DNA of 35,157 bases from Arthrobacter sp. SDTb3-6 (lineage in GTDB: Bacteria; Actinomycetota; Actinomycetes; Actinomycetales; Micrococcaceae). The stretch lies in assembly GCF_013376095.1 (NCBI RefSeq), contig NZ_JAAMFN010000039.1, positions 1-35,157 on the forward strand, given 5' to 3'. The first letter of the stretch is position 1, and the number at the start of each line of letters is the position of its first letter. Shown here piece by piece: positions 13,070 to 33,192 of the stretch. The notes under the pieces were generated by a model, which did not search any database, had not been told where the DNA came from, and saw only the letters and a program-made list of their open reading frames with translations. A program made the translations under genes and the position numbers.

Positions 13070-13348
13070 GTGGGCCCCTTCACTCAAAGTTGGTGGACAC
13101 ATTGGAAGTTGTCCTCCGCCGACCCTATCCCCGCTCTGTTCGGGATGCGTTGCCCCTTCCGCGGAATGGAATCCAAGACTGCCAAAGGAACTTTATCCCG
13201 GCATTCGGAACGGGCGGTGCAATCGGCCGTTCCGGCGGAGAATACTTTGAGGGGAGGGCAACGGTCCGGGGATGCGCGAACTCGTTTCAACCGGCCCTGT
13301 AGCATCAGGGTCCCCGAACTGACCACCACCGCCACTGAGGAGACCAAA
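13070..13348. promoter_or_regulatory. Divergent promoter region, CMD gene / monooxygenase operon
   Basis: This 279-bp region contains a 10-bp palindrome TTCCGCGGAA at 13157-13166 and an 8-bp inverted repeat CGGAACGG / CCGTTCCG at 13206-13213 and 13227-13234. These are candidate operators for the IclR or TetR regulators next door. Open frames through it lack a ribosome site, while GAGGAG precedes the chosen start at 13349. Confidence 0.45.
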
Positions 13349-14323
13349 ATGATGACCGCCACTACTTCCCGGCAGGCCTCTGCTGGCGTGACTGAGCAAG
13401 TCGACCCTGCCGATGACCCTCGGGCGTTCCGACGCGCGCTCGGTCAATTCGCAACAGGGGTCACCGTCGTCTCAACTTCCGACGGGGATGCACACGTGGC
13501 CATGGCCGTAAACTCGTTTGCAGCCGTCTCACTTGACCCTCCCCTTGTCTCGTGGTCGATCCGAAACGAATCAAGGAACCGTGACGCGTTTGTGCGCAAC
13601 GCGCACTTTGCCGTAAGCGTGTTGGCCGAAGACCAGGTGGAAACCTCCGGCCTCTTCGGCCGGCCCCACGATGGTCAGTTTGACAGGGTCGCCTGGACCG
13701 CCGGCGTCCATGGCGACCGGCTCCTGGACCAGGCAATCGCCCACTTCGAATGCACGCTGGAGGCCAGCCACGACGGCGGAGATCATCTGATCCTGATTGG
13801 ACGCGTCACGCGATGCACCCGGTTGGAGGGTACTCCCCTTCTATTCTCCCAAGGTCAATACGGAATTGCCCAGGCACATCCGCAGGTCGCCCTAACCTCC
13901 GCCAGTCCGTCGGCCGCTCCGGCCGCAGGCGATGGCAACCATCCCTTGTTTATGTCCTTGCTGAAGGCGACCGAACAACACATGTCCAGGCTCTTTGACG
14001 AGTACAGGGAACGTTTGGAGATCAGCGCCTTCGGCACCAGAATCATCAATTTGCTCGACGAAGCCCCCGCTCGTGATGGAGAACTGGCCGAACGCGCCCT
14101 GCTGGGCGATGCAGCCGTCGAAGACACCTTGAACGAGTTCAAGGCCAAAGGCTGGGTCGTTGAATCCCCCGCCCACATCTTTGAGCTGACCGACTCCGGA
14201 CGCATCCTTCGCCGGGAACTCCTGCGCGGCGCCGAAGAATTCACCGCAGCACAACTGAAAGGTATCGACCCGCGAGATCTTGAGGCCACCCGTCGAGTCT
14301 TGATCAAGCTGCTCACGGCGTAG
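13349..14323 (+). CDS. Flavin reductase of two-component phenol hydroxylase, with C-terminal MarR-like domain
   Basis: 324 residues. Residues about 25-180 are a flavin-reductase (HpaC/HsaB-like, split-barrel FMN-binding) domain with FRRALGQFATGVTVV, NSFAAVSLDPPLVSWS and the closing GQYGIA. After a Ala/Pro-rich linker (181-198), residues 199-324 form a winged-helix MarR-like domain. This architecture matches the reductase component C1 of Acinetobacter baumannii 4-hydroxyphenylacetate hydroxylase, where the C-terminal domain senses the aromatic substrate and relieves autoinhibition of NADH oxidation. It would supply reduced flavin to the oxygenase encoded 81 bp downstream. The frame is open back to 13070, but GAGGAG before the ATG at 13349 and family length support this start; the ATG at 13352 is equally possible. 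Substrate is inferred only as phenolic. Confidence 0.87.
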   Translation: MMTATTSRQASAGVTEQVDPADDPRAFRRALGQFATGVTVVSTSDGDAHVAMAVNSFAAVSLDPPLVSWSIRNESRNRDAFVRNAHFAVSVLAEDQVETSGLFGRPHDGQFDRVAWTAGVHGDRLLDQAIAHFECTLEASHDGGDHLILIGRVTRCTRLEGTPLLFSQGQYGIAQAHPQVALTSASPSAAPAAGDGNHPLFMSLLKATEQHMSRLFDEYRERLEISAFGTRIINLLDEAPARDGELAERALLGDAAVEDTLNEFKAKGWVVESPAHIFELTDSGRILRRELLRGAEEFTAAQLKGIDPRDLEATRRVLIKLLTA

Positions 14324-14404
14324 AGCCAGCACCTCAAAACAACCTGCAATGATGCCGCCAACCATATTGGCGGACCCCACGACCCCACAGCCAAAGGAGG
14401 GGAA

Positions 14405-15664
14405 ATGCCTACAACATCCGATTCCCTGAAAATACTTCCCATTGCCAATGATCCTGCCCGCCGGCAGGACTGGAGCGACTACCGGGAACGCGCACTCGCA
14501 GAGGGCCATACATTCCTCACTGCCGTCGAGGGCATCCTCGAAAGTGTGGCATCCAGGCGAACCCTGTCCGAAGCCGAGGGCCGGGTAACTGACGCCACGG
14601 TGAAAGACATGATCAGCACCGGACTCTTCCGGGCCTTTACCCCACTGCGCTACGGCGGTCTCGAGATGAATCCGGCCTCGCTTTTTGCCGGCGTCATGCG
14701 CATCGCGGAAGCCGACGCCTCCGCTGCCTGGATTGCCGGCCAACTCCACATTCACTCCTTCGAGATTGCGCTCATGAGCGAAAAAATGCAGGACGAGTTT
14801 TGGGCCACCGGCCCGGACACCAGGGCCTCCAGTTCCTATGCACCCATCGGGAAGGTGACAGAGGTCGACGGCGGACACCTCCTCAACGGTACCTGGACGT
14901 TCTCCAGCGGCGTCGATCATGCCCAATGGGTCATCCTCGGTGACGGCGACAAGGCCCACGTCGTGCCCATCGACGACGTGGTCATTGACCATTCCAGCTG
15001 GCAGGTCGAGGGCCTGAAGGGTACCGGCAGCAAATCTGTGACGCTGACGGACGTTTTTGTCCCGGACTACCGCACGCACCACTTCGTGGATACGTACAAC
15101 GATGAGAATCCGGGTTGGGCTGTGAACAACGTACCGCTCTATTGGGTATCGTTCCTTGCCCTCTTCAATTCCACGCCCACCAACACCGTGATCGGCACCG
15201 CACTGGGCGGTTTCAACACCTTCATCGAGCAGTCGCGGCAGCGACTCAGCCGCCAGGGAACGGGCTCGCCGATCGCCCAGAACCCTTTCCTGCATCTGAA
15301 GGTTGCCGAGGGGCTCACCCGCATCGGCGCCGCCCGGGACCGTCACATGAACAACTGGGCCACCCTCTTTGACACTGCGTGCCGGGGCGAGGAAGCTACT
15401 CCGCTGGAGCGCATGCGCGTGCGATTTGAATCCGCCTACGCAAATGCCACAAGCTTTGAGTCCTTTGCCGAAATCTGGCCCATCGCCGGCGCTGCCGCCG
15501 CAGCATCATCGAACCCGCTCCAGCAGACGTTCCGAGACCTGATGGCCGCCCGAAACCACGGCTCGGCGGGCAGGGAACTTGCAGCCGGGAGCTACATCAA
15601 GACGCTATTTGGGCTGCCACCGGCACCGTTCAAGGACTTCGGAACCTTGGCCTACTACAAGTAG
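14405..15664 (+). CDS. Flavin-dependent monooxygenase, oxygenase component (HsaA / HPAH-C2 type)
   Basis: A 419-residue protein with the acyl-CoA-dehydrogenase fold used by group D flavin monooxygenases such as HsaA and the C2 component of 4-hydroxyphenylacetate hydroxylase. The visible core is TGLFRAFTPLRYGGLEM (about 80), the ADASAAWIAGQL helix, GTWTFSSGVDHAQW in the beta domain and the C-terminal helical bundle ending AARNHGSAGRE. It uses reduced FMN/FAD from the preceding reductase and oxygen to ortho-hydroxylate a phenol to a catechol. A very strong ribosome site (AAAGGAGGGG) precedes the ATG. The pair forms a short operon ended by the terminator at 15676. The catechol product fits the extradiol dioxygenase at 17208. 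The exact phenol is unknown; 4-hydroxyphenylacetate-like or alkylphenolic acids are possible. Confidence 0.87.
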   Translation: MPTTSDSLKILPIANDPARRQDWSDYRERALAEGHTFLTAVEGILESVASRRTLSEAEGRVTDATVKDMISTGLFRAFTPLRYGGLEMNPASLFAGVMRIAEADASAAWIAGQLHIHSFEIALMSEKMQDEFWATGPDTRASSSYAPIGKVTEVDGGHLLNGTWTFSSGVDHAQWVILGDGDKAHVVPIDDVVIDHSSWQVEGLKGTGSKSVTLTDVFVPDYRTHHFVDTYNDENPGWAVNNVPLYWVSFLALFNSTPTNTVIGTALGGFNTFIEQSRQRLSRQGTGSPIAQNPFLHLKVAEGLTRIGAARDRHMNNWATLFDTACRGEEATPLERMRVRFESAYANATSFESFAEIWPIAGAAAAASSNPLQQTFRDLMAARNHGSAGRELAAGSYIKTLFGLPPAPFKDFGTLAYYK

Positions 15665-15675
15665 AAAACTGCAGC

Positions 15676-15710
15676 AGGCCCGGGCCCGAGATTTCGGGCC
15701 CAGGCCTTTT
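15676..15710 (+). terminator. Intrinsic terminator after the monooxygenase operon
   Basis: Nested hairpin: AGGCC at 15676-15680 pairs with GGCCT at 15703-15707, and GGGCCCGA / TCGGGCCC form the inner 8-bp stem around a GATT loop, followed by TTTT. It begins 12 bp after the stop codon. Confidence 0.85.
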
Positions 15711-15875
15711 GCACGTCCGCTGTTGTGAGAAGCCCGATAATAGCCCGGTAATGGCACTTTCAGGACAACGCTGCTGGTAGCGGGTGGGACGATCTGGGAC
15801 GATCTGGTGGCAGCGGCTCGGATTCCGGGAGCGCCGGGCCCCGGGTCTTGGCGTTTTTGGGTGACGACGCCTTCC

Positions 15876-16100
15876 TTACTGGTAGGCATGTCGGCGCATG
15901 TTGGACCCGTCGGGCTGGATGAGCGCGGTGGTCGAGACGATCCAGTTGAGGATTGATTCTGCCAGGGCGGAGGCGTGACGGGGCTCGTACCAGTCCTCGG
16001 GGTCGAACTGCGAGGTTACGACGATCGCGCCGCGGTTTTCCCTTCCGGCAAGGATGTCGGGCAGTTTACCGGCCACGTCCGTGGTTATCGGAGTGCTCAA
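15876..16100 (-). pseudogene. istB remnant (IS21-family ATP-binding protein, C-terminal fragment)
   Basis: The minus-strand translation includes KLPDILAGRENRGAIVVTSQ, DPEDWYEP and LAESILNWIVSTTALIQ, then GSNMRRH. This follows the end of IS21-family IstB helper ATPases (strand with '.S...', W..., LA.AILDR..H.A.....G.S.R). The Walker A and B parts and istA are absent, so only a scar of an IS21-type insertion remains. It lies between two convergent operons, a typical tolerated landing site. Confidence 0.65.
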
Positions 16101-16233
16101 GAAGTCCTCAACCGGGGGAACTAAAACCGCTGCCCGTCACCACACGGCTGCCCCCGCTTTGCCCCGTGTCCGCCCTCACAAGCCTCGTCCCTACAATGTG
16201 ACCCCGGGGCAAGATGGATTGATGGCATCAAAA

Positions 16234-16282
16234 AACTCCCCGGAAGCGTGGACCTGAAGTTCAGTCCACCTTCCGGGGAGTT
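16234..16282 (-). terminator. Strong terminator of the minus-strand catabolic operon
   Basis: AACTCCCCGGAAG at 16234-16246 pairs perfectly with CTTCCGGGGAGTT at 16270-16282, extended inside by TGGAC/GTCCA. On the minus strand it is followed by a T run (A-rich at 16230-16235 on plus). The GATTTTT at 16283-16289 could also make it work for plus-strand transcripts. Confidence 0.88.
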
Positions 16283-16305
16283 GATTTTTCCCATTTGACA
16301 GGGCA

Positions 16306-17211
16306 TCACACAGCAGCGGTCAACGCTTTCCCCCTGGAATGCTTGGCGAGAAACTCCAAGGCAATCTGGTGGAACGCTTCGGACTGCTCGAACTGCGGCC
16401 AGTGGTCACAGCCGCGCATCTCACGCAATTCGGCCGATTGAACCACCCTGGCGATCTCGTAGGCATTGTCCAAAAACATGTTGGGAGCATCCACGGAGGC
16501 CACCACCAGCAAGGGAAGTTTGAGTTTCGCCCACTCTTCCTTGCTCAATTGTTCCTGGCCCCGGGTAAAGGCCATGACATGGCCCATGGCGGCCTTCATG
16601 GCTTCCTGGCGGTAGACGCCCAACCGGACAGCGACCAGGTCGTCAATCAAATCATCCTGGTTAAGCATGAGCCGGCCCATTGCTGTGGTGACAGATTCCC
16701 AGGTTGGATCGGCCACGGCCGAGCTGCGCCGCTTGCGAACATCCGCTGCGAAAGCTGCTTCTTCCTCCGCGTCCACCACTATCCCGGCAGGAGCCAGGGC
16801 AATGAGGGAGTCCACCCGCTCGGGGAAATCATGAGCCAGCCGTGCAGCCACCCACGAACCGAGTGAGACGCCTATCAGTGCGGCGGTTTCCAGCCCGAGG
16901 GCATCCATGAAGTCACGCACATGCTCGGCATAATCGGCAATGCGGTAGTCGAAATCAGGTTTGTCCGTGTATCCGCAACCAAGCAAGTCCAGGCCCAGAA
17001 CGTGGTAGTTCTGGGACAACGCATCATAGTTGGCACAGAAGTTTTCCAGGCTGCCAGCCGTGCCGTGCAGCAATATCACAGAGGGGTTGGAACGATCACC
17101 GGCTTCCAGGTACCTGGTCCGCACGCCGCCGGCCTCCACATAGCGGAGGGAGTGCGGCGCGCGGTTCAGAAACGTCCAGATGCTTCTATGATCGGTTGCT
17201 GCGGAGCTCAC
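16306..17211 (-). CDS. Alpha/beta hydrolase, meta-cleavage product C-C hydrolase (BphD/MhpC/HsaD-like)
   Basis: A 301-residue alpha/beta hydrolase. Visible features are the oxyanion HGTAGS at 49-54, nucleophile S116 in GVSLGSW, D241 in VVASVDAP, H270 in GCDHWPQFEQSEAF, and a cap domain between about 140 and 215. The residue set and the 'CDHWPQFEQ' block are characteristic of hydrolases that split ring-fission products of extradiol dioxygenases into a carboxylic acid and a 2-hydroxydienoate. The start is the GTG at 17211, which overlaps the dioxygenase stop as GTGA, indicating translational coupling; an open frame further upstream is a shadow. It is the last gene of the operon, before the terminator at 16234. 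Cytoplasmic. Confidence 0.85.
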   Translation of the reverse strand: MSSAATDHRSIWTFLNRAPHSLRYVEAGGVRTRYLEAGDRSNPSVILLHGTAGSLENFCANYDALSQNYHVLGLDLLGCGYTDKPDFDYRIADYAEHVRDFMDALGLETAALIGVSLGSWVAARLAHDFPERVDSLIALAPAGIVVDAEEEAAFAADVRKRRSSAVADPTWESVTTAMGRLMLNQDDLIDDLVAVRLGVYRQEAMKAAMGHVMAFTRGQEQLSKEEWAKLKLPLLVVASVDAPNMFLDNAYEIARVVQSAELREMRGCDHWPQFEQSEAFHQIALEFLAKHSRGKALTAAV

Positions 17212-17813
17212 GACGCCAATGCGACGCGGGCGGCCTTGATTTTGGCCGCCTGCTCCGCCATCCACTCGGTACGCGGACGCGCCTTGGGATCGGCCTGGAC
17301 CAGTGCCTCCGTCTGGCGCAGGATTTCCTCTTCGCTGTCTTCGAGGTTCAGCGGCTCGCCGAGAGGCTGCTGCGTGTACCACTGCGAGTGCGTGTAAACC
17401 TCGATCATATTGCCGTCGGGATCGTCGATGTAGATGCTCCACGCGGTCCCATGGTTCTTGACCACCTGGACGGGGATGCCCGTGGCCACAACATGGCGCC
17501 AGAAGGCGCGCAGTTCGGTGAGGTTCGGGACCAAAAAGGAGATCTGGGCCGTGGTGGGAGGTGTCTCGGGGGCGCGGCCCTCGATCAACGCCAGCTGGTG
17601 GTGCTCGCTGGGGTCCCCTGTCAGGAACGCCCCGCGGCGCTTGGTGGCAGCCTTTCCGGACTTGCCCAGTCCGGAGTCGCTGACGATCATGCCGAATTCA
17701 CGGCAGTAGAACTCGACCATGGCGTCGAGGTCCTTGCAAAAGATTCCGAGATGGGCCAGGCGCGGATTGAATTCCGTCAGTATCTGGGCGTCGTTGCTGG
17801 TGGTCAGTGTCAT
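17208..17813 (-). CDS. Extradiol catechol dioxygenase-like VOC protein
   Basis: 201 residues with a VOC fold. The likely Fe(II) ligands are H21 in RLAHLGIFCKDLD, H71 or H72 in DPSEHHQLAL, and E138 in DPDGNMIEVY, giving the 2-His-1-carboxylate triad of extradiol dioxygenases. The core is followed by a C-terminal helical extension (about 150-201). It is shorter than two-domain type I enzymes (about 290-310), so it belongs to single-module catechol dioxygenases. The context (coupled to a C-C hydrolase, hydratase and aldolase) makes ring cleavage of the catechol made by the flavin monooxygenase the natural role. GAAGGAAA precedes the ATG at 17813; an open frame extending to 18071 overlaps the upstream gene and is not used. 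Confidence 0.82.
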   Translation of the reverse strand: MTLTTSNDAQILTEFNPRLAHLGIFCKDLDAMVEFYCREFGMIVSDSGLGKSGKAATKRRGAFLTGDPSEHHQLALIEGRAPETPPTTAQISFLVPNLTELRAFWRHVVATGIPVQVVKNHGTAWSIYIDDPDGNMIEVYTHSQWYTQQPLGEPLNLEDSEEEILRQTEALVQADPKARPRTEWMAEQAAKIKAARVALAS

Positions 17814-17883
17814 GTTGTTTCCTTCTCTATTCTTCGGGTGAATGCGGTTGTGACACGCTGGCCGGCATGCGCCAGCCGTTTCG

Positions 17884-19269
17884 TCATGGGAGTGAAAGTT
17901 CGTTGGCAAGATCGGCCACGTCCGTGACGTCCTCGAGTTTGCGGATAAGATCCAAAGCACGTTCTGCCTGAGGTTGCGGCAGCGTGCCGTTGAACTTGAT
18001 GTTGCGCCAGTACTTGTCGACGACGTCGTCAAAGCCCACCGGATCTTCCAGCCAACCGATCGGGGTTTCACGGAAGAATTCGAGCTGACGACCGTCCTTG
18101 AGAAGAATGTTCAAGCGAATGGCGTGCGTCTTCCCGGATGGAAGGTTGGGGCGCAAGGTCACCCGGGATGCCAGATCGAGCACCATGGGATCGTAAATGG
18201 CCGGCTCGGAGTAGTGTTCCAACTCGGGACGGCCCCGGTACAACGCATTGGCCACACCGTACGGGATGCTGAAGAGGAATTTTGGCTGCAGGTCATCTGC
18301 TGTGGGCACCTGGTTCAGGAAGTGGTCGATGCGCTTGGGCAGCACGTCAAGGTAGACATGCTCGACGTCGTCGCCGTCGAACTTGTGCTCTCGGCGCACC
18401 TCCAAGGCGCAATCGATCGGGTTGTGGTTTCCGTAGCAGGAGGGGTGCAGCTTGTGTTGGCCGCGCACATAGAAGGTACTGCCCAGGTCAGCGGTCATGT
18501 CCGAAGGGTGCGGGTCCTTGGTGTACAGGCTGAAGTAGCCCAATCGGCTCTCCAAGGCATCCCGGACACCGTCAAAGCCGGCCACCGACAGCTGGCAGCT
18601 GAGGATGCCGTTGAAGGCGGCCATGGCACCGGGCAACTTGAAAGAGGGAACACCATCCCAAATGCCCTGGTAAGAGCCGGCCATGAGATTTAGCAGGATG
18701 CCAAAGGCGTTGCGCAGCTGATCACGGGTCAAGCCCATCAGCCGGCCTGCAACGGCGACCGCACCGAAGGCGTTGGAGGTGCCACAGACTTCGAAGTCCG
18801 CATCGAAATTGAAGGTGTTGCCGACAGAAACCCGGGCCGCGACGTCACCGCCGAGAACGACAGCCGCCAAGACCTCTTCGCCGCTGGAATGCAGGAACTC
18901 ACCGACATTCAAGGCCACAGCCTCGGTCGTGCTGGCTACGTGGCCGACCATTTTGCCGGCGTTTATGCCTTCCGGTTCCGGCCCGCAGACCTCAAAATCG
19001 AAGGACCTGATCTGCAGGGAGTTGACCATGGCGGCATAGGGAAGAGCCAGCTTTTCCGCACTTCCCACCACGGATGCCTGGGGCGCGCCGCCCAGGGCGC
19101 GGATGACCTCGAGGAGCGCGTCGTTGCCTGCCGCTCCCGCGCCCGAGACGGCGCAGCTCAGGGCGTCGATAAGGCGCATCTTGGCGGCGGTGAGGACGTC
19201 CTCGTCAAAAGCCCCAAAAGGCGTGAGGAGGATATGATCAACCAGCTGGTCGATGATGCGTGGAGCCAT
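17884..19269 (-). CDS. MmgE/PrpD-family protein
   Basis: A 461-residue MmgE/PrpD-fold protein, near the usual 450-480. The all-helical domain carries MRLIDALSCAVSG and AVALNVGEFLHSSGEEVLAAVVLG-type helices, and the C-terminal lid includes YGNHNPIDCALEVR and the FSIPYGVANAL block. Known members are 2-methylcitrate dehydratase (PrpD) and cis-aconitate decarboxylase; many are unassigned. No prpB/prpC gene is near, so a methylcitrate cycle role is unlikely. Sitting between the aldolase and the dioxygenase, it probably dehydrates, isomerises or decarboxylates an unsaturated di- or tricarboxylic intermediate. I chose the ATG at 19269, preceded by a weak GGAAAGGG site; an upstream ATG at 19308 would add 13 residues. 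Confidence 0.8.
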   Translation of the reverse strand: MAPRIIDQLVDHILLTPFGAFDEDVLTAAKMRLIDALSCAVSGAGAAGNDALLEVIRALGGAPQASVVGSAEKLALPYAAMVNSLQIRSFDFEVCGPEPEGINAGKMVGHVASTTEAVALNVGEFLHSSGEEVLAAVVLGGDVAARVSVGNTFNFDADFEVCGTSNAFGAVAVAGRLMGLTRDQLRNAFGILLNLMAGSYQGIWDGVPSFKLPGAMAAFNGILSCQLSVAGFDGVRDALESRLGYFSLYTKDPHPSDMTADLGSTFYVRGQHKLHPSCYGNHNPIDCALEVRREHKFDGDDVEHVYLDVLPKRIDHFLNQVPTADDLQPKFLFSIPYGVANALYRGRPELEHYSEPAIYDPMVLDLASRVTLRPNLPSGKTHAIRLNILLKDGRQLEFFRETPIGWLEDPVGFDDVVDKYWRNIKFNGTLPQPQAERALDLIRKLEDVTDVADLANELSLP

Positions 19270-19452
19270 AATGAGCCTGCCCTTTCCTAAAATTGGAAAA
19301 TGTCCCAAGACCGCTGCCGGCGCGTGGGTACCTTCGTGTTTATGACGATATGCCCCGGCCTGGAGCCGGGTAAGACGCCTTCCCGGTATCCGGCAAGTCC
19401 GTCACGGTTGTCACGGAAAGACACCGCAGCCCGCCCCCACCTGATGGATTTG
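19270..19452 (-). promoter_or_regulatory. 183-bp gap inside the operon with a small hairpin
   Basis: All other gaps in this operon are shorter than 75 bp or are overlaps. Here a perfect 6-bp stem (CCCGGC at 19354-19359, GCCGGG at 19365-19370, loop of 5) lies between the aldolase stop and the MmgE/PrpD start, without a T-tail. It may mark an internal promoter, a processing site or an old deletion. Confidence 0.35.
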
Positions 19453-20265
19453 CTAGTAACTTTGCGCAGGTGTAGGAACTGAGGAGTGCACATCCTTGAT
19501 GTACCGTGTTGCCAGCGCCTCCGATCCTCGAGCCAGAAGCGAAACGTCCGCCCCCACGTTGATGAAGTCGGCGCCGGCTTCTTCGTAGAGGCGTGCCTGC
19601 CGTTCGACGAACGCGTTGACCCCGACAATCTTTCCAGCTTCCTTGACCTCCCGGATGGAACGCAGGACTGCGGCGATGACGTCGGGGTGGTCCTGTTGGC
19701 CCAGCAGTCCCATGGTTGCGGCGAGGTCGGCCGGCCCAATGAAAACGCCGTCGATCCCGTCCACGCGGGCGATGTCGCCAGCATTTGCCACGGCTTGCGC
19801 CGATTCGAGCTGGACCAGCAAGGTGAGCCCTTCCTCTGCGTTTTCCAGGTAACGGGGGATCCTGTTCCAGCGCGCGGAACGCGCCAAGGAAGCACCCACA
19901 CCGCGGATGCCCCTCGGTGCGTAGCGGATCGCGGCCACAGCGTGCCGGCCCTGGTCGGCGGTGTTGACCATGGGCACGATCAAGGACTGCGCGCCGAGAT
20001 CCAACACCTGCTTGATGACGACAGGATCGTTGTCGGGCACCCGCACCACGGAGACGCACGGATACCCGGCAACCGCGCGAAGCTGGGCCAGGATCGTTTC
20101 CAGGCCCGAGGGTCCGTGCTCACCATCGATCAGCACATAGTCCAGCCCGGATCCGGCACAGATCTCCGCCACACCGGCGTCGCCGGTGCAAAGGAACATG
20201 CCCACGACACTCCGCCCGTTGACGGCGAAGAGGTCCTTGAAGGAAGGTGTCATTCGAATCTGCAT
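19453..20265 (-). CDS. HpaI-type class II pyruvate aldolase
   Basis: 270 residues, HpcH/HpaI family. Residues known to matter in E. coli HpaI (D42, H45, R70, E149, D175) all find counterparts at a constant offset of five: D47 and H50 in LIDGEHG, R75 in VVRVP, E154 in VQLES and D180 in IGPADL. It should be an active metal-dependent aldolase that splits a 4-hydroxy-2-oxo acid into pyruvate and an aldehyde. HpaI acts on 4-hydroxy-2-oxoheptanedioate in homoprotocatechuate degradation, but the enzyme class accepts many aldehydes. It overlaps the hydratase gene by 16 bp, indicating coupling. The ATG at 20253 is an alternative start. Confidence 0.9.
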   Translation of the reverse strand: MQIRMTPSFKDLFAVNGRSVVGMFLCTGDAGVAEICAGSGLDYVLIDGEHGPSGLETILAQLRAVAGYPCVSVVRVPDNDPVVIKQVLDLGAQSLIVPMVNTADQGRHAVAAIRYAPRGIRGVGASLARSARWNRIPRYLENAEEGLTLLVQLESAQAVANAGDIARVDGIDGVFIGPADLAATMGLLGQQDHPDVIAAVLRSIREVKEAGKIVGVNAFVERQARLYEEAGADFINVGADVSLLARGSEALATRYIKDVHSSVPTPAQSY

Positions 20266-21035
20266 GTGATGGTCCCCAACTTTCCGTAGTCAGCGAAAAC
20301 CGTGTCTCCCCGATCAACGGGGACCGGGCGAGTGAAGGAACCGGCCAAAATGATCTGCCCCGCTTTCAATACGTCCCCGTGAGCGGCAATCTTGTTGGCA
20401 AGCCAGTAAACACCGGCCGCGGGATGGCCCAAAACGCCGGCGGCGACCCCCGTCTCCTCCACCACCTGGTTTTTGTACAGCACCGCCGCAATCCATGGCA
20501 AGTCAACGTCCTGTATCCGGACGGGGGTTCCACCCAGCACCATGACGCCCATCGCGGCATTGTCTGAAATGGTGTCAACGATGGTCCGGTCCGGCATTTC
20601 GATGCGTGAATCAAGGATTTCCAGGGCCGGAACCACGTATTCGGTGGCGTTCATGACGTCCAGGATTGTCGCGCCTGGCCCTACAATCTCGTGTTTGAGA
20701 ACAAACGCCAATTCCACCTCGACCCGGGGATTGGTGTACCCGTCCCATGGTAGAGAGCAGCCACTGGGCAGCACCATGTCCTCAAAGATCACCCCGTAAT
20801 CGGGTTCTGTGATGCCGCTGGAGAGCTGCATGGCACGGGAGGTCAGACCGATCTTACGGCCGGAGAGCTTGCGCCCGGCGGCTTCCCCACATTGCTGCCA
20901 CAGCTTTTGGACCCTGTAGGAATCCTCCACTGTCATGTCAGGGTAGCGCGCCGTCAAGCGCTCGATCGGTATCCGTGTCCTGCCCGCCTCGAACAGTTCC
21001 TCGGCCACAAAGGCGATGGTTTGTTCATCGAGCAT
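20250..21035 (-). CDS. 2-oxo-hept-4-ene-1,7-dioate / 2-hydroxypentadienoate hydratase (HpaH type)
   Basis: 261 residues of the fumarylacetoacetate-hydrolase-fold hydratase family, closest by eye to HpaH/HpcG: GRKIGLTSRAMQ at 59-70, SGITEPDYGVIFEDM at 73-87. The metal-site carboxylates E106 and E108 lie in RVEVELAFVL and E139 in VPALEILDSRI. It adds water to the double bond of a 2-hydroxy-2,4-dienoate (or its oxo form) to give a 4-hydroxy-2-oxo acid for the adjacent aldolase. It sits 48 bp downstream of the ABC ATPase gene in the same operon. HpaH-like sequence suggests a dicarboxylic substrate, but MhpD-type monocarboxylic substrates cannot be ruled out. Confidence 0.88.
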   Translation of the reverse strand: MLDEQTIAFVAEELFEAGRTRIPIERLTARYPDMTVEDSYRVQKLWQQCGEAAGRKLSGRKIGLTSRAMQLSSGITEPDYGVIFEDMVLPSGCSLPWDGYTNPRVEVELAFVLKHEIVGPGATILDVMNATEYVVPALEILDSRIEMPDRTIVDTISDNAAMGVMVLGGTPVRIQDVDLPWIAAVLYKNQVVEETGVAAGVLGHPAAGVYWLANKIAAHGDVLKAGQIILAGSFTRPVPVDRGDTVFADYGKLGTITCRFE

Positions 21036-21083
21036 GGAAGCGCCTTCCTGTCCCGCCGTGCGCCATTGGGCCCGCGGGGGCCC

Positions 21084-21905: not shown

Positions 21906-21915
21906 GGTCGTTTTC

Positions 21916-24580: not shown

Positions 24581-24923
24581 TGGGGGTACCGACTTCCTTC
24601 GAGATGGATGGGGACAGCCGCTGTAGCTGGGAAGAGGTCCGAAAAGTCTGGAACAAACCATTTCTGTAGCGACTGGTTCAGTAAACGGTAATTTCCGTCA
24701 CACCGGCTGTTCAACCGGTCATCCCGGATAGTGAAAAGTTGTGCCGAAAAGTTATGAACCTGCCCTCCGAAACCCGTACGCCGGCGTGAGGACAAGCGCA
24801 CTCGGTAAAAAGTTGACGTGCCGCATAGCGGGATGCACCCGTGCCGAACCCGTCGCCGACGTGTGGAATGGTGCCAAGAGCCGGTGCCGCTTCAGGACGC
24901 CGGGCAAACCGAAGGAGCCTCTG
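24581..24923. promoter_or_regulatory. Divergent promoter region, transport/ring-cleavage operon versus CoA operon
   Basis: 343 bp between the two main operons. It contains the near-palindrome ACGGTAATTTCCGT (24683-24696, two central mismatches), an inverted repeat ACCGG / CCGGT around 24701-24718, and a direct repeat GAAAAGTT at 24733-24740 and 24746-24753 (13-bp period). These make a plausible shared control region for the IclR or TetR regulators. No gene is supported here. Confidence 0.5.
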
Positions 24924-26117
24924 ATGCGGGAACGCCCACTGGAGGGCATCTTGGTGGCCGATTTCTCCCGCGTTCTGGCGGGCCCCCTTGCCACCATGAC
25001 GTTGGCAGACCTGGGTGCGCGGGTCATCAAGGTCGAGCGCCCTGGAAGTGGCGACGACACCCGACACTGGGGACCGCCCTATTCCGAAACAGGAACCACC
25101 TACTTTGATTCGGTCAACCGAAACAAGGAATCCCTTTGTCTGGATCTCACCGATCCCCACGGCCGCAAGCTGGCCTTGGAACTGGCGGATCGGGCAGATG
25201 TTGTGGTGGAAAATTTCAAGCCCGGCGGCATGGACAAGCTGGGGCTCGGATACCCGGAATTGTCGGCCAGCAACCCCGGCCTGGTCTACGCATCGATCTC
25301 CGGCTTCGGTGACCGCAAAGGGGCTGAGCTGCCCGGCTACGACTTTATTGTCCAGGCCCTCGGGGGCCTTATGAGCATTACCGGAGAGCCAGAGCATGAT
25401 CCCACCAAGGTGGGCGTTGCCGTGGTCGACGTACTCACGGCCAAGGACACAACCATTGGCATCTTGGCAGCCCTGACCGCCCGGCAGCACAGCGGCCTCG
25501 GCGCACACCTGAAAATGAACCTGCTCTCCAGCTTGCAAGGCAGCCTGGCCAATCAGGTGCAGGCGTTCCTGGGTTCAGGGGCGGTACCAGTCCGGATGGG
25601 CAACGAGCATCCATCCATCGTTCCCTACCAGCTTCTGGAAGCAGGCGACGGCCCACTCGCCGTCGCGTGCGGAAACGATTCCCAGTTCGTGAAACTATGC
25701 AGCGTGCTGGGCAGCCCGGAACTCACAGCCGATCCGCGTTTTGCCACCAACGCCGCCCGGGTGGCGCACCGCACTGAACTGATCCCGCTCCTGGAGAGTG
25801 CTCTGGCCGTTGCACCGGCGGCGCACTGGCAATTGCAATTGTCGGCCGCCGGGGTTCCCTCCGGAAAAGTGGGCGGCATTGACGACGGCCTGGCCTACGC
25901 CGAGGAACTGGATCTGAACCCCACCATCGACGTGCTGGACCCGGCCGGAGCGGTCGCGGGCCGGCAAGTGCGCCACCCGATCACCTGGGAACCGGAGTTT
26001 AGCGTCCGACGCGACGCGCCGCCCCAGCTGGGGCAAGACAGCGAAGCCATCATCTCCTGGCTGAGCAAACCCAACCACCCCTCACCCATAAGCCAGAAGG
26101 CAGGACCAGCACAATGA
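24924..26117 (+). CDS. Class III CoA-transferase (CaiB/BaiF family; glutarate/succinate-type)
   Basis: 397 residues of the formyl-CoA transferase family. Hallmarks are LEGILVADFSRVLAGPLATMTLADLGARVIKVE at the N-terminus (in pieces MRERPLEGILVADFSRVLAG), RNKESLCLDL, VVVENFKPGGMDKLGL, and the catalytic aspartate D169 in VAVVDVLTA. Beside a glutaryl-CoA dehydrogenase gene it most likely loads CoA onto glutarate, as the mammalian succinate-hydroxymethylglutarate CoA-transferase (SUGCT) does; this specificity is inferred from context and resemblance. GAAGGAG precedes the ATG at 24924; an open frame from 24741 has no ribosome site. Its stop overlaps the next start (ATGA). Confidence 0.88.
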   Translation: MRERPLEGILVADFSRVLAGPLATMTLADLGARVIKVERPGSGDDTRHWGPPYSETGTTYFDSVNRNKESLCLDLTDPHGRKLALELADRADVVVENFKPGGMDKLGLGYPELSASNPGLVYASISGFGDRKGAELPGYDFIVQALGGLMSITGEPEHDPTKVGVAVVDVLTAKDTTIGILAALTARQHSGLGAHLKMNLLSSLQGSLANQVQAFLGSGAVPVRMGNEHPSIVPYQLLEAGDGPLAVACGNDSQFVKLCSVLGSPELTADPRFATNAARVAHRTELIPLLESALAVAPAAHWQLQLSAAGVPSGKVGGIDDGLAYAEELDLNPTIDVLDPAGAVAGRQVRHPITWEPEFSVRRDAPPQLGQDSEAIISWLSKPNHPSPISQKAGPAQ

Positions 26118-27298
26118 AAACCCAGGACCCGAGTGTGACCCTTGACCCGGCAGATCTGATCGACTTCGACTCCCTGCTGAGCCCTGAAGAGCTCAGCCTT
26201 CGCAGCACCGTGCGGGAGTTTGTCCAGCGCGAAATCAAGCCCAACATTGCCAAGTGGTACGAATGCGCCGAGTTCCCCTTGAAATTAGTGCCAGAACTGG
26301 CCAAGCTGGGGCTGCTTGGAATGCATCTGCACGGCTACGGTTGCGCCGGACGTTCGGCCGTTGACTACGGCATTGCCGGTGCGGAACTGGAAGCCGGTGA
26401 TTCCGGCCTGCGCACCTTCGTGTCGGTGCAAGGCTCCCTGGCCATGTCCGCCATTCACAAGCACGGCTCGGAGGAGCAAAAGCAGGAATGGCTGCCGCAG
26501 ATGGCCGCCGGCACGGCCATCGGCTGCTTCGGCCTCACCGAAGCCACCGCCGGCTCGGACCCCTCCAGCATGAAAACCTTCGCCCGCAGGGACGGGGACG
26601 ACTGGGTGATCAACGGCTCCAAACGCTGGATCGGCCTGGCCAACGTGGCCGCAGTCGCAATCATCTGGGCACAGACGGAGGACGGCGTCCGAGGCTTCGT
26701 CGTCCCCACCAACAGCCCCGGCTTTGTGGCCACGGTGATTGAGCCAAAGCTCTCCATGCGCGCCTCCATCCAGTGCGAAATAGAGCTCACCGACGTCCGG
26801 CTGCCAGCCTCCGCCGTGTTTTCCGACGTCGTGGGGTTGCGGGGTCCGTTCTCCTGCCTGAACGAGGCCCGCTACGGCATCATCTGGGGTGCCATGGGCG
26901 CTGCGCGAGACGCCTTCGAAGACGCACTGGCCTATGCACAGCAGCGCCTGCAGTTCGGCAAGCCCCTGGCCGGATACCAACTCACGCAACAAAAACTGGT
27001 GGACATGGCGCTGGAAATCAACAAGGGATTCCTCCTGGCGCTGCATTTGGGTCGCCTCAAGGACAAGGGCGCCCTGCAACCACACCAGATCAGCGTTGGC
27101 AAACTCAACAATTGTCGCGAAGCCATCGCCATCTGCCGCGAGGCCAGGACCATTCTGGGCGGCAACGGAATCACCTTGGACTACTCCCCGCTCCGCCATG
27201 CCAACAACCTGGAATCAGTGCGTACCTACGAGGGCACCGATGAGGTCCACACGCTGATCCTGGGCAACAAACTCACCGGCGTTCCGGCGTTCCGCTGA
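26114..27298 (+). CDS. gcdH: Glutaryl-CoA dehydrogenase
   Basis: 394 residues, acyl-CoA dehydrogenase fold. Strong match by eye to glutaryl-CoA dehydrogenases: DSGLRTFVSVQGSLAMSAIH, GCFGLTEATAGSDPSSM, GPFSCLNEARYGIIWGAMGAAR and ILGGNGI near the C-terminus. R100, in the position of human Arg94 that binds the distal carboxylate, and catalytic base E373 in TYEGTDEVH are both present. It oxidises and decarboxylates glutaryl-CoA to crotonyl-CoA with FAD, passing electrons to ETF. Translationally coupled to the CoA-transferase (ATGA overlap). This makes the plus-strand operon a glutarate-to-acetoacetyl-CoA route, lacking only an enoyl-CoA hydratase. Confidence 0.93.
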   Translation: MKTQDPSVTLDPADLIDFDSLLSPEELSLRSTVREFVQREIKPNIAKWYECAEFPLKLVPELAKLGLLGMHLHGYGCAGRSAVDYGIAGAELEAGDSGLRTFVSVQGSLAMSAIHKHGSEEQKQEWLPQMAAGTAIGCFGLTEATAGSDPSSMKTFARRDGDDWVINGSKRWIGLANVAAVAIIWAQTEDGVRGFVVPTNSPGFVATVIEPKLSMRASIQCEIELTDVRLPASAVFSDVVGLRGPFSCLNEARYGIIWGAMGAARDAFEDALAYAQQRLQFGKPLAGYQLTQQKLVDMALEINKGFLLALHLGRLKDKGALQPHQISVGKLNNCREAIAICREARTILGGNGITLDYSPLRHANNLESVRTYEGTDEVHTLILGNKLTGVPAFR

Positions 27299-27320
27299 TC
27301 TCGACGCAAGGAAAAAAACC

Positions 27321-28838
27321 ATGAAAGCAGCACCCGCACACACTCTGGAGATGCCAGCCACGGCCGAGCTCCGGCACTTCATCGCCGGCCAGTGGCGCCT
27401 AGGCACCGGCGCGCCCATCTCCTCCCTCAACCCGGCGCGGCCCGGGGAGGTCGTGGCCGCCGGCACCCAGGCAACCACGAACGACGTCGATGCCGCCATG
27501 ACAGCGGCCCTCGCCGCCGCGCGTGGCTGGGCACGCACCCCGATGCACGAGCGTGGTGAAGTGCTGCTCCGGGCCGCGGCCCACATCGAGACCAACGCCC
27601 AGGCGTGGGGGCTGGAGTTGGCCCGCGAAGAAGGAAAAGCGCTCGAAGAGGGCACCGGGGAAGTCACACGGGCTGCCGCGATCCTGCGCTACTACAGTGC
27701 AGAGGGCGACCGCCTCGCCGGTGAAGTGTTTTCCTCACCCCGGCGCGGCGAGCGAATCATCGTCACCCGCAAGCCGCTTGGCGTGGTGGGCGTGGTGACA
27801 CCGTTCAACTTCCCCATCGCCATCCCCGCCTGGAAAATTGCACCGGCGCTTGTCTACGGCAACACGGTGGTCTGGAAACCGGCGTCGACCGTGCCCCTGC
27901 TGGCCATGCGCCTGGCACAGGCGCTCGATGCGGCAGGCCTGCCCACGGGAGTCCTCAACCTCCTCATTGGGCCTGGCGCGCTGGGCAACCACCTGGTTGA
28001 GCACCCTGGCCTTGACGGGCTGACCTTTACCGGCTCCACCAGGGTTGGCCGGGCACTCAGCGCCAAGGCCGCCGGTTTGGGTGTGCCCATCCAGGCGGAG
28101 ATGGGTGGCAAGAACGCCGCCATCGTCCTGGCCGACGCCGATCTTGAACTGGCCGTTGACCAAGTTCTCCTTGGCGCTTTCCGCTCCTCCGGACAAAAAT
28201 GCACGGCGACCTCGCGACTGATTCTGCAGGATTCGATCGCCGATGCATTCTTGGAGCGGCTCAGCGACCGGCTGGACCAATGGCACATCGGCGACCCCAC
28301 AGATCCTTCAGTCACCATGGGTCCGGTGGTCTCCGACGCCGCCGCCGAAGACATCCGCACCGGTGTGCGGGCCGCCCAGGCACAGGGAGCCCGTTTGGTC
28401 TACGGCGGCGTTGATTCCCCAACACATGCCGGAACGGCGTTGCCTGCGGCGCGGAGTTTCCTGGCACCCACGGTGCTCGAAGTCCCCCGAACCGCAACAA
28501 CCACAGTGAACCCTGCGTGGCGCGAGGAATTCTTTGGCCCGGTCCTGAGTTTCGTCAGGGCCACCACCATGAAGGACGCCTTCGACCTTGCCAACGACAG
28601 CAAATTCGGCCTCTCCTGCGCGTTGTTCACCCAGGATGTCACGGCGGTGCTGGAAGGCATTGACGAGTTGGACGTGGGTATTCTTCACGTGAATTCCGAA
28701 TCTGCGGGCGCGGACCCCCACGTCCCCTTCGGCGGTGCCAAAAAATCCGGTTACGGCCCCAAGGAACAAGGCGGTGCTGCCAAGGAATTCTTCACCCACA
28801 CCACCACCGTGTATCTGCGCGGAGGTGCAACCTCATGA
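27321..28838 (+). CDS. NAD(P)-dependent aldehyde dehydrogenase (semialdehyde dehydrogenase type)
   Basis: 505 residues, ALDH superfamily. N163 in TPFNFP, the FTGSTRVG nucleotide-binding motif at 236-243, E260 in AEMGGKN and the catalytic C294 in SGQKCTATSR are all in place. The C-terminal YGPKEQGGAAKEFFTHTTTVY resembles 2-oxoglutarate-semialdehyde and succinate-semialdehyde dehydrogenase groups. In this operon it would oxidise the aldehyde released by the HpaI-type aldolase or a glutarate semialdehyde to the acid used by the CoA-transferase. Ribosome site AAGGA precedes the start. Its stop overlaps the next ATG (ATGA). Confidence 0.9.
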   Translation: MKAAPAHTLEMPATAELRHFIAGQWRLGTGAPISSLNPARPGEVVAAGTQATTNDVDAAMTAALAAARGWARTPMHERGEVLLRAAAHIETNAQAWGLELAREEGKALEEGTGEVTRAAAILRYYSAEGDRLAGEVFSSPRRGERIIVTRKPLGVVGVVTPFNFPIAIPAWKIAPALVYGNTVVWKPASTVPLLAMRLAQALDAAGLPTGVLNLLIGPGALGNHLVEHPGLDGLTFTGSTRVGRALSAKAAGLGVPIQAEMGGKNAAIVLADADLELAVDQVLLGAFRSSGQKCTATSRLILQDSIADAFLERLSDRLDQWHIGDPTDPSVTMGPVVSDAAAEDIRTGVRAAQAQGARLVYGGVDSPTHAGTALPAARSFLAPTVLEVPRTATTTVNPAWREEFFGPVLSFVRATTMKDAFDLANDSKFGLSCALFTQDVTAVLEGIDELDVGILHVNSESAGADPHVPFGGAKKSGYGPKEQGGAAKEFFTHTTTVYLRGGATS

Positions 28839-29722
28839 GCTCCCCGGACATCGAAGCCATTGAGCGCATCCTGGTGGTGGGCGCCGGCACCATGGGCCGG
28901 CAGATCGCCATGAGTGCCGCCCTGGCCGGCTACACGGCCACCGTTCAGGACATCAACGCCGACATGCTGGCAGCTGCCGGCGCCGACTTAGGCACCTGGG
29001 CCGCGACGCGGGTCGGCAAGGGAAAACTGGACAGTGACGCCGCATCGCAGGCCCTGTCCAGGCTCAGCTACACCACCAACCTGCAGGAAGCTGCGGGCAG
29101 CGCCGACTTTGTCATTGAGGCCGCCACCGAGCGGCTCGATATCAAGAAGGAAATCTTCGCCACCCTGGGCAGCTATACACCTGCGCATGCCGTACTGGCC
29201 TCAAATTCCTCAACCCTGGGCTCTTCCAAGGTGGCAGAGGCGTCGGGCCGGGCCGAACAGGTCTGCAACATGCACTTCTTCAACCCGGCGCTCGTCATGA
29301 AATGTGTTGAGGTGGTGCGCCACGACCTGACCTCCGACGCCACAGTGGCCGTAACACTGGAACTGGCCCGGCGGCTCGGCAAGCAGCCAGTGTTGATCAA
29401 CCATGAGATTCCCGGCTTTGTTGCCAACCGGCTGATGGGCGCAATCCAGCGCGAAGCCTTGGCGCTGGCCGACGCCGGGGCCGCCACCATCGAGGACATC
29501 GACACCACGGCCCGCACCGCGCTGGGCCACCCCATGGGCCCGTTCGAACTCATGGATCTGGTGGGCCTGGACGTCATCACCTTCATCGCCGAGGCCACCT
29601 ACGCCGAAACATCCGACCCCGCAGACGCGCCCCATCCCCGGGTCCAGGCCCTTGAGGCTACCGGCAGGTTGGGGCGCAAAAGCGGTTCAGGATTCTACGA
29701 CTACGGCCAAGGAGGGCACTAA
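28835..29722 (+). CDS. 3-hydroxyacyl-CoA (3-hydroxybutyryl-CoA) dehydrogenase
   Basis: 295 residues. N-terminal Rossmann motif GAGTMGRQ at 16-23, catalytic H147 in CNMHFFNPALVMKCVEVV with E159, and S124 in ASNSSTL match short 3-hydroxybutyryl-CoA dehydrogenases (PaaH/Hbd type). It oxidises (S)-3-hydroxyacyl-CoA with NAD, giving acetoacetyl-CoA if the substrate comes from glutaryl-CoA. Last intact gene of the plus-strand operon; its end carries AAGGAGGG, a ribosome site for a following gene that is truncated. The C-terminal domain (about 185-295) is complete (PMGPFELMDLVGLDV, KSGSGFYDY). Confidence 0.92.
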   Translation: MSSPDIEAIERILVVGAGTMGRQIAMSAALAGYTATVQDINADMLAAAGADLGTWAATRVGKGKLDSDAASQALSRLSYTTNLQEAAGSADFVIEAATERLDIKKEIFATLGSYTPAHAVLASNSSTLGSSKVAEASGRAEQVCNMHFFNPALVMKCVEVVRHDLTSDATVAVTLELARRLGKQPVLINHEIPGFVANRLMGAIQREALALADAGAATIEDIDTTARTALGHPMGPFELMDLVGLDVITFIAEATYAETSDPADAPHPRVQALEATGRLGRKSGSGFYDYGQGGH

Positions 29723-33123: not shown

Positions 33124-33192
33124 ATCACCATCCCACCCGGGAGCCAGCAGCGTCCAATATCGTTTTCACCAATTAACGATAAGAAATTCTTA

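Follow-up and report, generated by a model that had tools for sequence, protein, structure and literature searches.

What compound would be degraded by a set of genes that joins the meta-cleavage of an aromatic ring to the oxidation of glutaryl-CoA, as found in the soil bacterium Arthrobacter sp. SDTb3-6? The genes lie on contig NZ_JAAMFN010000039.1 (contig C78), which was analysed in its entirety (35157 bases of a 4.3-Mb genome; hereafter, the window). Open reading frames, family scans (Pfam, NCBIfam) and PDB sequence matches were used to call genes, and each enzyme named in a first-pass annotation of the locus proved to be a long open frame at 13349-29722 that matches the family given to it. 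That annotation had omitted a MmgE/PrpD-family gene (PrpD) and an IstB-like remnant inside the interval, and genes for an IclR-family regulator, a double TetR-domain regulator and a carboxymuconolactone-decarboxylase-family (CMD) protein just outside it. With moderate confidence, we favour the reading that 3-(4-hydroxyphenyl)propionate (phloretate) and 3-(3,4-dihydroxyphenyl)propionate (dihydrocaffeate) are degraded by a complete meta-cleavage pathway, encoded by the cluster, that ends at acetoacetyl-CoA. From the observed gene identity, conservation, linkage, paralogy and a shared DNA motif, we infer the substrate, the regiochemistry, every reaction and the regulation.

In the proposed pathway, an ABC importer with an NMT1-type binding protein would take up the phenolic acid and a two-component flavin hydroxylase would convert it to the catechol, whose 2,3 (proximal) bond would be cut by a one-domain VOC dioxygenase to give 5-(2-carboxyethyl)-2-hydroxymuconate semialdehyde. 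A C-C hydrolase would release formate and 2-hydroxyocta-2,4-dienedioate, from which an HpaH-type hydratase and an HpaI-type aldolase would yield pyruvate and glutarate semialdehyde (5-oxopentanoate). An aldehyde dehydrogenase (ALDH) would then form glutarate, the CoA-transferase CaiB glutaryl-CoA and a glutaryl-CoA dehydrogenase (GCDH) crotonyl-CoA; after hydration by a general hydratase, a 3-hydroxyacyl-CoA dehydrogenase (HCDH) would produce acetoacetyl-CoA. If a C5 semialdehyde is delivered by this chemistry, then the catechol would carry CH2CH2COOH at position 4, since its nine carbons equal those of formate (1), pyruvate (3) and 5-oxopentanoate (5).

The gene set recurs in other genera. 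A three-member oxygenase alignment, used to scan genome contigs, detected 16 loci, and the set (oxygenase, reductase, PrpD, VOC protein, hydrolase, HpaH, HpaI, CMD, double TetR, IclR and importer) was found in Arthrobacter sp. APC 3897, the Arthrobacter metagenome-assembled genome (MAG) LacPavin, Pseudarthrobacter sulfonivorans, Nocardia carnea, N. higoensis, Micromonospora sonchi and Nocardioides Iso805N. Part of the set is present on a 7.8-kb contig of N. farcinica, Pseudomonas 5P_3.1_Bac2 has the enzymes without the importer, CMD and both regulators, and a Rhodoferax contig carries the oxygenase, reductase, PrpD, hydrolase, HpaI and ALDH. Because recurrence over genera indicates more than chance association, we conclude that the gene set is not a group of chance neighbours.

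The suggestion that a meta-cleavage module is joined to a glutaryl-CoA module holds physically and probably functionally. In five of the eight assessable actinobacterial clusters (the window, LacPavin, P. sulfonivorans, N. carnea and M. sonchi), CaiB and GCDH are no more than 15 kb away from the oxygenase; this count leaves out N. farcinica, with its short contigs, and all Gram-negatives. The orders differ (CaiB-GCDH-ALDH-HCDH, GCDH-CaiB or GCDH-ALDH-CaiB), which argues for retained association rather than plain shared descent; some GCDH relative occurs in all 14 genomes searched, so mere presence says little. The top PDB matches of CaiB include a succinate--hydroxymethylglutarate CoA-transferase, and those of GCDH are 3swo (E 4.4e-160) and 1sir (E 1.5e-103). 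Compared with human GCDH, the active-site Arg and the catalytic Glu are kept and the Ser beside the Arg is replaced by Thr; we take the Arg/Ser pair to contact the substrate and the Glu to be catalytic.

Paralogues of these genes point to the compound that the aromatic pathway delivers. The genome encodes three further GCDHs (72-79% identical to that of the window), and contig C87 (1-14000) carries a paralogous operon with CaiB (72% identity), GCDH (79%), ALDH (69%) and HCDH (66%) together with a thiolase, an isopropylmalate/tartrate-dehydrogenase-like gene and a class III GABA-type aminotransferase. A paralogous module in APC 3897 comprises CaiB, a PucR regulator, a GABA-type aminotransferase, GCDH, ALDH and an amino-acid permease. 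Both aminotransferases fall short of the GABA-aminotransferase cut-offs, with scores of 598.4 and 606.4 (cut-off 639 in each case), and both modules probably serve 5-aminovalerate (lysine/cadaverine) catabolism via glutarate semialdehyde, glutarate, CaiB and GCDH. In a tree of 15 ALDHs, from paralogue modules and neighbourhoods plus a Caballeronia SSADH, the window ALDH falls in a clade of eight with the aminotransferase-linked ALDHs of C87 and APC 3897 (split support 1.00). The same clade holds the GCDH-linked ALDHs of LacPavin, P. sulfonivorans and M. sonchi and the ALDHs that adjoin the flavin reductase in N. higoensis and N. farcinica; six other neighbourhood ALDHs and the Caballeronia SSADH fall outside, and branches within the clade are partly weak. 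This grouping with aminotransferase modules suggests that the aromatic pathway most likely delivers glutarate semialdehyde, not glutarate. With the HpaE model the ALDH scores under the cut-off (337.5 vs 638.35).

The hydratase and aldolase are consistent with such a product. The window hydratase passes the HpaH model TIGR02312 (364 bits, cut-off 351.5) and lies far below the cut-off of the 2-oxopent-4-enoate hydratase model (218.6 bits, cut-off 408.8), as it does with monocarboxylate hydratase models. All ten cluster hydratases match TIGR02312 and all nine cluster aldolases match TIGR02311, but both groups match three sister models as well, and in these cluster-wide scans scores are known for the window member only. 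The two enzymes thus appear to be of the dicarboxylate (HpaH/HpaI-like) type. In tetralin degradation, according to excerpts of PMC6563040, the HpaH/HpaI relatives ThnE and ThnF yield pimelic semialdehyde, which is followed by an ALDH, CaiB and, after beta-oxidation, GCDH. By analogy with ThnE/ThnF, the aldolase of the window would deliver a C5 omega-semialdehyde acid.

The hydroxylase has the features of a two-component flavin phenol hydroxylase: an oxygenase of the acyl-CoA-dehydrogenase fold, a separate flavin reductase and conserved phenol-binding residues. The best PDB match of the reductase is the HPAH reductase component 5zc2 (residues 21-297, both domains, E 9.5e-35), and the oxygenase best matches HsaA (E 2.3e-60) and HPAH C2 (E 7e-47). 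Conserved residues of the window oxygenase are H117, S143, H385 and S387; in an alignment of 17 oxygenases, window included, all keep the equivalents of HPAH-C2 H120, S146 and H396, which we presume to bind the phenol. The position of C2 Tyr398 is Ser in 12 of 12 core oxygenases and Thr in 5 of 5 of the Burkholderia type. In HPAH C2, the Y398S change raised the yield of trihydroxycinnamate from p-coumarate from 26% to 50% (excerpt of PMC10816480), and the Ser at this place was counted in favour of the phloretate/dihydrocaffeate pathway.

An independent pointer to a phenylpropanoid (C6-C3) substrate is proximity to mhp genes. These lie within ~21 kb of the oxygenase (between midpoints) in 8 of the 10 neighbourhoods scanned, in two phyla: LacPavin, P. 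sulfonivorans, M. sonchi, Nocardioides (no MhpC), N. higoensis, N. carnea (MhpA, B and C only), Pseudomonas 5P and Caballeronia. The loci were picked by the oxygenase and not by mhp, kin lineages among them are not independent, and the count leaves out N. farcinica and a Paraburkholderia MAG (short contigs) as well as Pseudomonas TTU2014-080ASC, P. lycopersici, Burkholderia WSM2230 and H160, and P. adhaesiva. MhpB exceeded the NF009910 cut-off in seven of seven genomes tested; the best models of MhpA were those of 3-HPP hydroxylase in all seven, with the cut-off exceeded in four. A match to NF009910 at E 1e-60 was found in 6 of 296 sampled genomes of the phylum, including this genome and N. 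carnea, in a survey that may miss other MhpB types. In SDTb3-6 a complete mhp set with its regulator is located on contig C35 (20696-27863; 66-90% identical to the P. sulfonivorans mhp genes) and holds the only MhpB match of the genome; neither MhpA nor a class III MhpB was found in the cluster of the window. The Pseudarthrobacter mhp cluster includes a hydratase best matched by the DmpE model, an acetylating acetaldehyde dehydrogenase and a 4-hydroxy-2-oxovalerate aldolase.

For ring cleavage, we propose that the one-domain VOC protein is an extradiol dioxygenase that cleaves a catechol. In an alignment of 12 sequences, H21, H71, H72, H121, Y128 and E138 are invariant, which provides a 2-His-1-carboxylate set (H21, H71/H72, E138) with second-shell H121 and Y128; these catalytic and second-shell roles are our assumption. 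The structure model consists of one domain (pLDDT 87.1), and the protein has two PDB sequence matches only, both weak. Related activities are described in partial texts of two papers: L-DOPA 2,3-dioxygenases, which are small VOC enzymes, accept dihydrocaffeate (PMC12311729), and 3,4-dihydroxyphenylacetate dioxygenase cleaves its propionate analogue at 2.6% of the rate (PMC5291488). Together, these activities suggest that the proposed cleavage of dihydrocaffeate is feasible. In the hydrolase that would act next, Ser108, Asp233 and His262 are identical in three distant members.

The regulatory region may supply a further connection between the two modules. An IclR homologue (50-77% identity) is present in the cluster in all eight long actinobacterial neighbourhoods, window included, and double TetR homologues are 42-65% identical. 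By intergenic comparison, a 16-mer, TTCTGTAGTGCTTGGT, was found both in the IclR/TetR gap and upstream of the binding-protein gene in the window, LacPavin and APC 3897 (three of three). A matrix built from these six sites identified six further sites in four of five held-out actinobacterial clusters (P. sulfonivorans, two; N. carnea, one; M. sonchi, one; N. higoensis, two), all of which lie either between the IclR and TetR genes or immediately upstream of the binding-protein gene, and none in the held-out Nocardioides cluster. It also found one weaker site at window position 2489, and none in Pseudomonas 5P, four other stretches of the same genome or 10 shuffles of the window. When up to two mismatches are allowed, the window contains three matches (two of which define the motif) vs 0.31 expected, and as many occurred in 1 of 100 shuffles. 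The motif is missing from the CMD/reductase promoter: comparison of the importer/CoA and CMD/reductase regions gave 0 (window), 3 (LacPavin) and 0 (APC 3897) weak 16-mer pairs, and shuffled controls gave 0-2. We suggest that a cluster regulator, IclR or the double TetR protein, acting at TTCTGTAGTGCTTGGT sites, probably controls its own gene and the divergent importer/lower-pathway and CoA operons. Since APC 3897 retains the importer-side site without an adjoining CaiB, this site may serve the importer alone.

Several observations weigh against the phloretate/dihydrocaffeate pathway. It needs no step from the PrpD or CMD proteins. The best model for the aldolase, TIGR02311, is matched at 289.5 bits (cut-off 368.8) and that for CaiB, succinate--glutarate CoA-transferase, at 333 bits (cut-off 750), so that both are under the cut-off, and HPAH Arg263 is not kept in the oxygenases, which have Leu, Ser, Thr, Pro or Met instead. 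Relatives of the VOC protein in Pseudomonas are 37-42% alike (39% in 5P_3.1_Bac2), the Rhodoferax contig has no match to VOC or HpaH, and one Burkholderia-type cluster also carries a two-domain extradiol-like enzyme. In the ipp pathway, a 211-residue dioxygenase that adjoins an HsaA-like hydroxylase cleaves a hydroquinone (excerpt of PMC12442392), which makes catechol cleavage by the window VOC protein uncertain. Likewise, ThnD is described as inactive on ring-fission products with a small C6 substituent (excerpt of PMC6563040); with a hydrolase that is HsaD-like, this makes the release of formate uncertain. CaiB and GCDH are unlinked in three of the eight clusters (APC 3897, N. higoensis and Nocardioides), where they occur elsewhere in the genome, and were not seen near the oxygenase in the Pseudomonas, Rhodoferax and Burkholderia-type loci. 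HCDH linkage is limited to the window, LacPavin and Pseudarthrobacter; the cluster ALDHs of N. carnea, Nocardioides and Rhodoferax fall outside the window ALDH clade, and APC 3897 has no ALDH within ~20 kb on either side of its cluster. Finally, mhp is not adjacent in the window contig, APC 3897 or Rhodoferax.

The PrpD protein is part of the case for a different substrate. It contains both domains of the MmgE/PrpD family (PF03972, E 2.1e-35; PF19305, E 4.7e-23), its nearest PDB entry is IDS-epimerase, and its solved relatives are an epimerase and decarboxylases. Among the stretches that are fully or almost fully conserved in all 11 aligned sequences are DFEV.GP.PEG.N.GKMVGHV, FEVCGT.NAFGA, FKLPGA and HPSCYGNHNPI. 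Each of the nine actinobacterial clusters whose oxygenase is at least 68% identical (window and N. farcinica included) has the gene, as do both Pseudomonas loci and the Rhodoferax locus, and it occurs in every cluster seen with an oxygenase of at least 66%; no match was found in the available flanks of the Burkholderia-type loci (Caballeronia, Paraburkholderia/Burkholderia; oxygenase 52-54%). The CMD gene travels with the actinobacterial clusters (homologues 55-73% identical). These facts would fit a phenol of a related C6-C3 or tyrosine-derived kind that bears an additional carboxyl or hydroxyl group or an unsaturation (p-coumarate or an aryl-succinate type, for example) and that PrpD and CMD would dehydrate or decarboxylate on the way to glutarate or glutaconate. 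We regard this as unlikely: no direct evidence favours another substrate, and the Burkholderia-type flanks show no PrpD. In the phloretate/dihydrocaffeate pathway, PrpD probably tautomerises or isomerises a dienol/keto intermediate.

A second explanation, which we consider less likely still, is that the CoA operon is a chance neighbour, namely a second copy of a 5-aminovalerate/glutarate operon beside an aromatic island. Its GCDH is 79% identical to that of the aminotransferase operon of the same genome, linkage is missing in three of eight clusters, and the aromatic part has a GC content of 60.5%, compared with 64.3% for the left flank and CoA operon (right flank, 62.2%). However, linkage recurs with other gene orders in N. 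carnea and Micromonospora, an ALDH of the same clade adjoins the flavin reductase in N. higoensis, which lacks linked CaiB/GCDH, and the promoter region that the two operons share contains an operator-like site.

It had also been suggested that the ring bears a butyrate side chain and that the hydrolase releases a dicarboxylate, glutarate, leaving 2-hydroxypenta-2,4-dienoate for conversion to pyruvate and acetaldehyde. CaiB and GCDH are compatible with free glutarate, and HsaD-like hydrolases, we presume, act on large acyl groups. However, the dienoate left behind would be a C5 monocarboxylate, whereas the hydratase scores as HpaH-type; the acetylating acetaldehyde dehydrogenase and 4-hydroxy-2-oxovalerate aldolase that Pseudarthrobacter has in mhp are absent from this cluster; and the ALDH groups with aminotransferase-linked modules. 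This substrate therefore seems highly improbable. Equally improbable is the bicyclic substrate offered as a second option (a tetralin- or indane-like phenol whose second ring the hydrolase would open, the longer omega-oxo acid from the aldolase being shortened to glutaryl-CoA), which shares its enzyme classes with tetralin ThnD, E, F, G, H and N, among them ThnE/F that resemble homoprotocatechuate hydratases and aldolases (excerpts of PMC6563040), but which would give pimelate and need a beta-oxidation set of which no pimeloyl-CoA dehydrogenase, enoyl-CoA hydratase or thiolase was seen among the window genes scanned, nor any pimelate beta-oxidation gene between the linked modules of four relatives, where all open reading frames between the oxygenase and CaiB/GCDH match window genes, and which sits poorly with the mhp association.

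Considered by analogy, the cluster would follow the logic of the homoprotocatechuate and tetralin pathways in a new combination. The hpa pathway uses a two-component hydroxylase, proximal extradiol cleavage of a 4-substituted catechol and HpaH/HpaI to give pyruvate and an omega-semialdehyde. The cluster shares the two-component phenol hydroxylase, the HpaH-type hydratase and, as proposed, proximal cleavage, and its aldolase has HpaI as best model at a score under the cut-off, but it has a C-C hydrolase in place of HpaE/HpaF/HpaG and a one-domain VOC dioxygenase, and its semialdehyde would be C5 and lead to glutaryl-CoA, whereas that of hpa is C4 and leads to succinate; no second FAA-hydrolase-type or HpaF-type match was seen among the window genes scanned. 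The mhp pathway has a single-component hydroxylase (MhpA) and a class III dioxygenase (MhpB), releases succinate and forms acetaldehyde. It resembles the cluster in a phenylpropanoid acid substrate, meta-cleavage, a C-C hydrolase, a hydratase and an aldolase and is physically near in most relatives, yet it is a separate gene set within the same genome. HsaA and HsaD are the closest solved relatives of the oxygenase and hydrolase, but these score under the HsaA (276.9 vs 450) and HsaD (125.1 vs 400) equivalog cut-offs, and the VOC protein has no NCBIfam match at E 1e-10, HsaC included.

There may be earlier biochemical work on the meta fission of hydrocaffeate by pseudomonads. In the portion of the open-access PMC literature covered, no such gene cluster was found, in agreement with the initial impression that no described pathway has this exact set. 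The tetralin (thn) systems of Sphingopyxis granuli TFA and Rhodococcus TFB (excerpts of PMC6563040) share a C-C hydrolase, HpaH-/HpaI-like enzymes, a semialdehyde dehydrogenase, CaiB and GCDH; the cluster differs in starting with a flavin hydroxylase and in having PrpD and CMD, and no Rieske dioxygenase or cis-dihydrodiol dehydrogenase was seen among the window genes scanned. The L-DOPA 2,3-dioxygenases of lincomycin-type biosynthesis (excerpt of PMC12311729) are likewise small VOC extradiol enzymes for 3,4-dihydroxyphenyl substrates with a C3 side chain but have a biosynthetic context, and none is named among the two PDB matches of the window VOC protein. The ipp cluster resembles ours in hydroxylase type, with no C-C hydrolase in the available rows of its table (PMC12442392). 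The isoflavone (ifc) and naringenin (fde) clusters, considered for their glyoxalase-type dioxygenase, were set aside: the part of PMC11069340 available describes an FAD-binding monooxygenase and cupins and mentions no aldolase or hydratase. Neither "dihydrocaffeate" nor "glutar" occurs in the text of a lignin review (PMC6486533).

The arrangement of the locus is given in the table below. The minus-strand genes that run from the binding protein (~24580) to the hydrolase (16306) either overlap or are separated by at most ~185 bases, and this tight spacing suggests that the importer, HpaH, HpaI, PrpD, VOC protein and hydrolase may form a single transcript, with the importer genes first in the row. 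The CaiB-GCDH-ALDH-HCDH operon starts divergently from the same intergenic region.

Table. Features of the Arthrobacter sp. SDTb3-6 locus, in window coordinates.
Feature	Position	Strand	Basis
IclR-family regulator	10198..10998	-	Pfam IclR_C
Operator-like site TTCTGTAGTGCTTGGT between IclR and TetR genes	11065..11080	+	shared 16-mer
Double TetR-domain regulator	11241..12527	+	two TetR_N stretches
CMD-family protein	12524..13102	-	Pfam CMD
Flavin reductase (reductase component), C-terminal extra domain as in HPAH C1	13349..14323	+	PDB match
Two-component phenol hydroxylase, oxygenase component (HsaA/HPAH-C2 type)	14405..15664	+	PDB matches
IS21 IstB-like remnant	15879-16136	-	E 0.0009, under Pfam cut-off
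Meta-cleavage-product C-C hydrolase	16306..~17187	-	PDB matches HsaD and other meta-cleavage hydrolases
One-domain VOC protein, proposed extradiol dioxygenase	17208..17813	-	Pfam Glyoxalase
MmgE/PrpD-family enzyme	17884..~19272	-	Pfam MmgE_PrpD N and C
HpaI-type aldolase	19453..20265	-	TIGR02311
HpaH-type hydratase	20250..21035	-	TIGR02312
ABC importer: ATPase, two permeases, NMT1-type binding protein	21084..~24580	-	family scans
Operator-like site TTCTGTAGCGACTGGT, divergent importer/CoA-operon promoter region	24662..24677	+	shared 16-mer
Class III CoA-transferase CaiB (succinate:glutarate type)	24927..26117	+	NCBIfam, PDB
GCDH	26114..27298	+	PDB matches
ALDH, proposed glutarate-semialdehyde dehydrogenase	27321..28838	+	clade with aminotransferase-linked ALDHs
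3-Hydroxyacyl(butyryl)-CoA dehydrogenase (HCDH)	28835..29722	+	Pfam 3HCDH; NCBIfam under cut-offs

The IstB-like remnant between the oxygenase and hydrolase genes is perhaps a trace of past transposition. Directly past the CoA operon is a type B carboxylesterase-family gene (30154-31713, minus strand), whose product could release phenolic acid from plant esters. An MFS transporter gene (31710-33190, minus strand) looks broken, its open frame matching the second half only with MFS-like sequence upstream in other frames, as in a pseudogene or after a sequencing error. A creatininase-family amidohydrolase (5976-6770, plus strand), near an MFS transporter and a TetR regulator, has no evident tie to the cluster.

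The cluster is rare among the genomes sampled. An oxygenase match at E <=1e-150 was found in 4 of 395 genomes of the family, this genome and a differing type (G677) included, and at E 1e-70 in 2 of 396 genomes of the phylum, this genome again included; carriers make up 3 of 148 genomes in the genus of N. carnea. None of 22 same-genus genomes has a close oxygenase (sole match, 23%), and synteny comparisons were consequently drawn from more distant genomes. Rarity, presence in two phyla and the lower GC content suggest horizontal transfer of a cluster that is probably mobile; a search of plasmids for similar DNA was uninformative, as it returned a single record, in which 311 bases match a Kocuria HCDH gene.

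Other oxygenase loci differ in content. In G677, another Micrococcaceae genome, a 58% oxygenase is accompanied by two proteins resembling C-C hydrolases (26%) and by a LigB-like protein of 299 aa, judged by eye to look like a class III extradiol dioxygenase; this locus was set aside as serving another substrate and is perhaps a sister pathway for another phenol. In a Burkholderia-type locus (L037, 9950-17881), a 52% oxygenase and a 58% hydrolase are found with two further proteins, one BphC-like with two domains and one VOC protein with a single domain. In Caballeronia (L019, 17950-30452), annotated MhpD/F/E adjoin the hydrolase in place of HpaH/HpaI, and an IS3 element follows a 247-aa VOC gene.

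We advance tentatively, as rather less probable than the assignment of the substrates itself, a broader proposal: that a phenylpropionate pathway to glutaryl-CoA moves between phyla beside mhp, with a new subfamily of one-domain extradiol enzymes and a new MmgE/PrpD isomerase or tautomerase that the pathway needs. The breakdown of lignin, flavonoids and hydroxycinnamates commonly yields 4-hydroxyphenylpropionate and dihydrocaffeate. If the phloretate/dihydrocaffeate pathway is correct, carriers would obtain pyruvate, formate and glutarate from these acids by a route that stands beside mhp, which would make glutarate, used as a building block of polymers, accessible biologically from plant phenolics. 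The gene set would then provide genome annotators with a trait marker and would be a lead to the function of an MmgE/PrpD subfamily.

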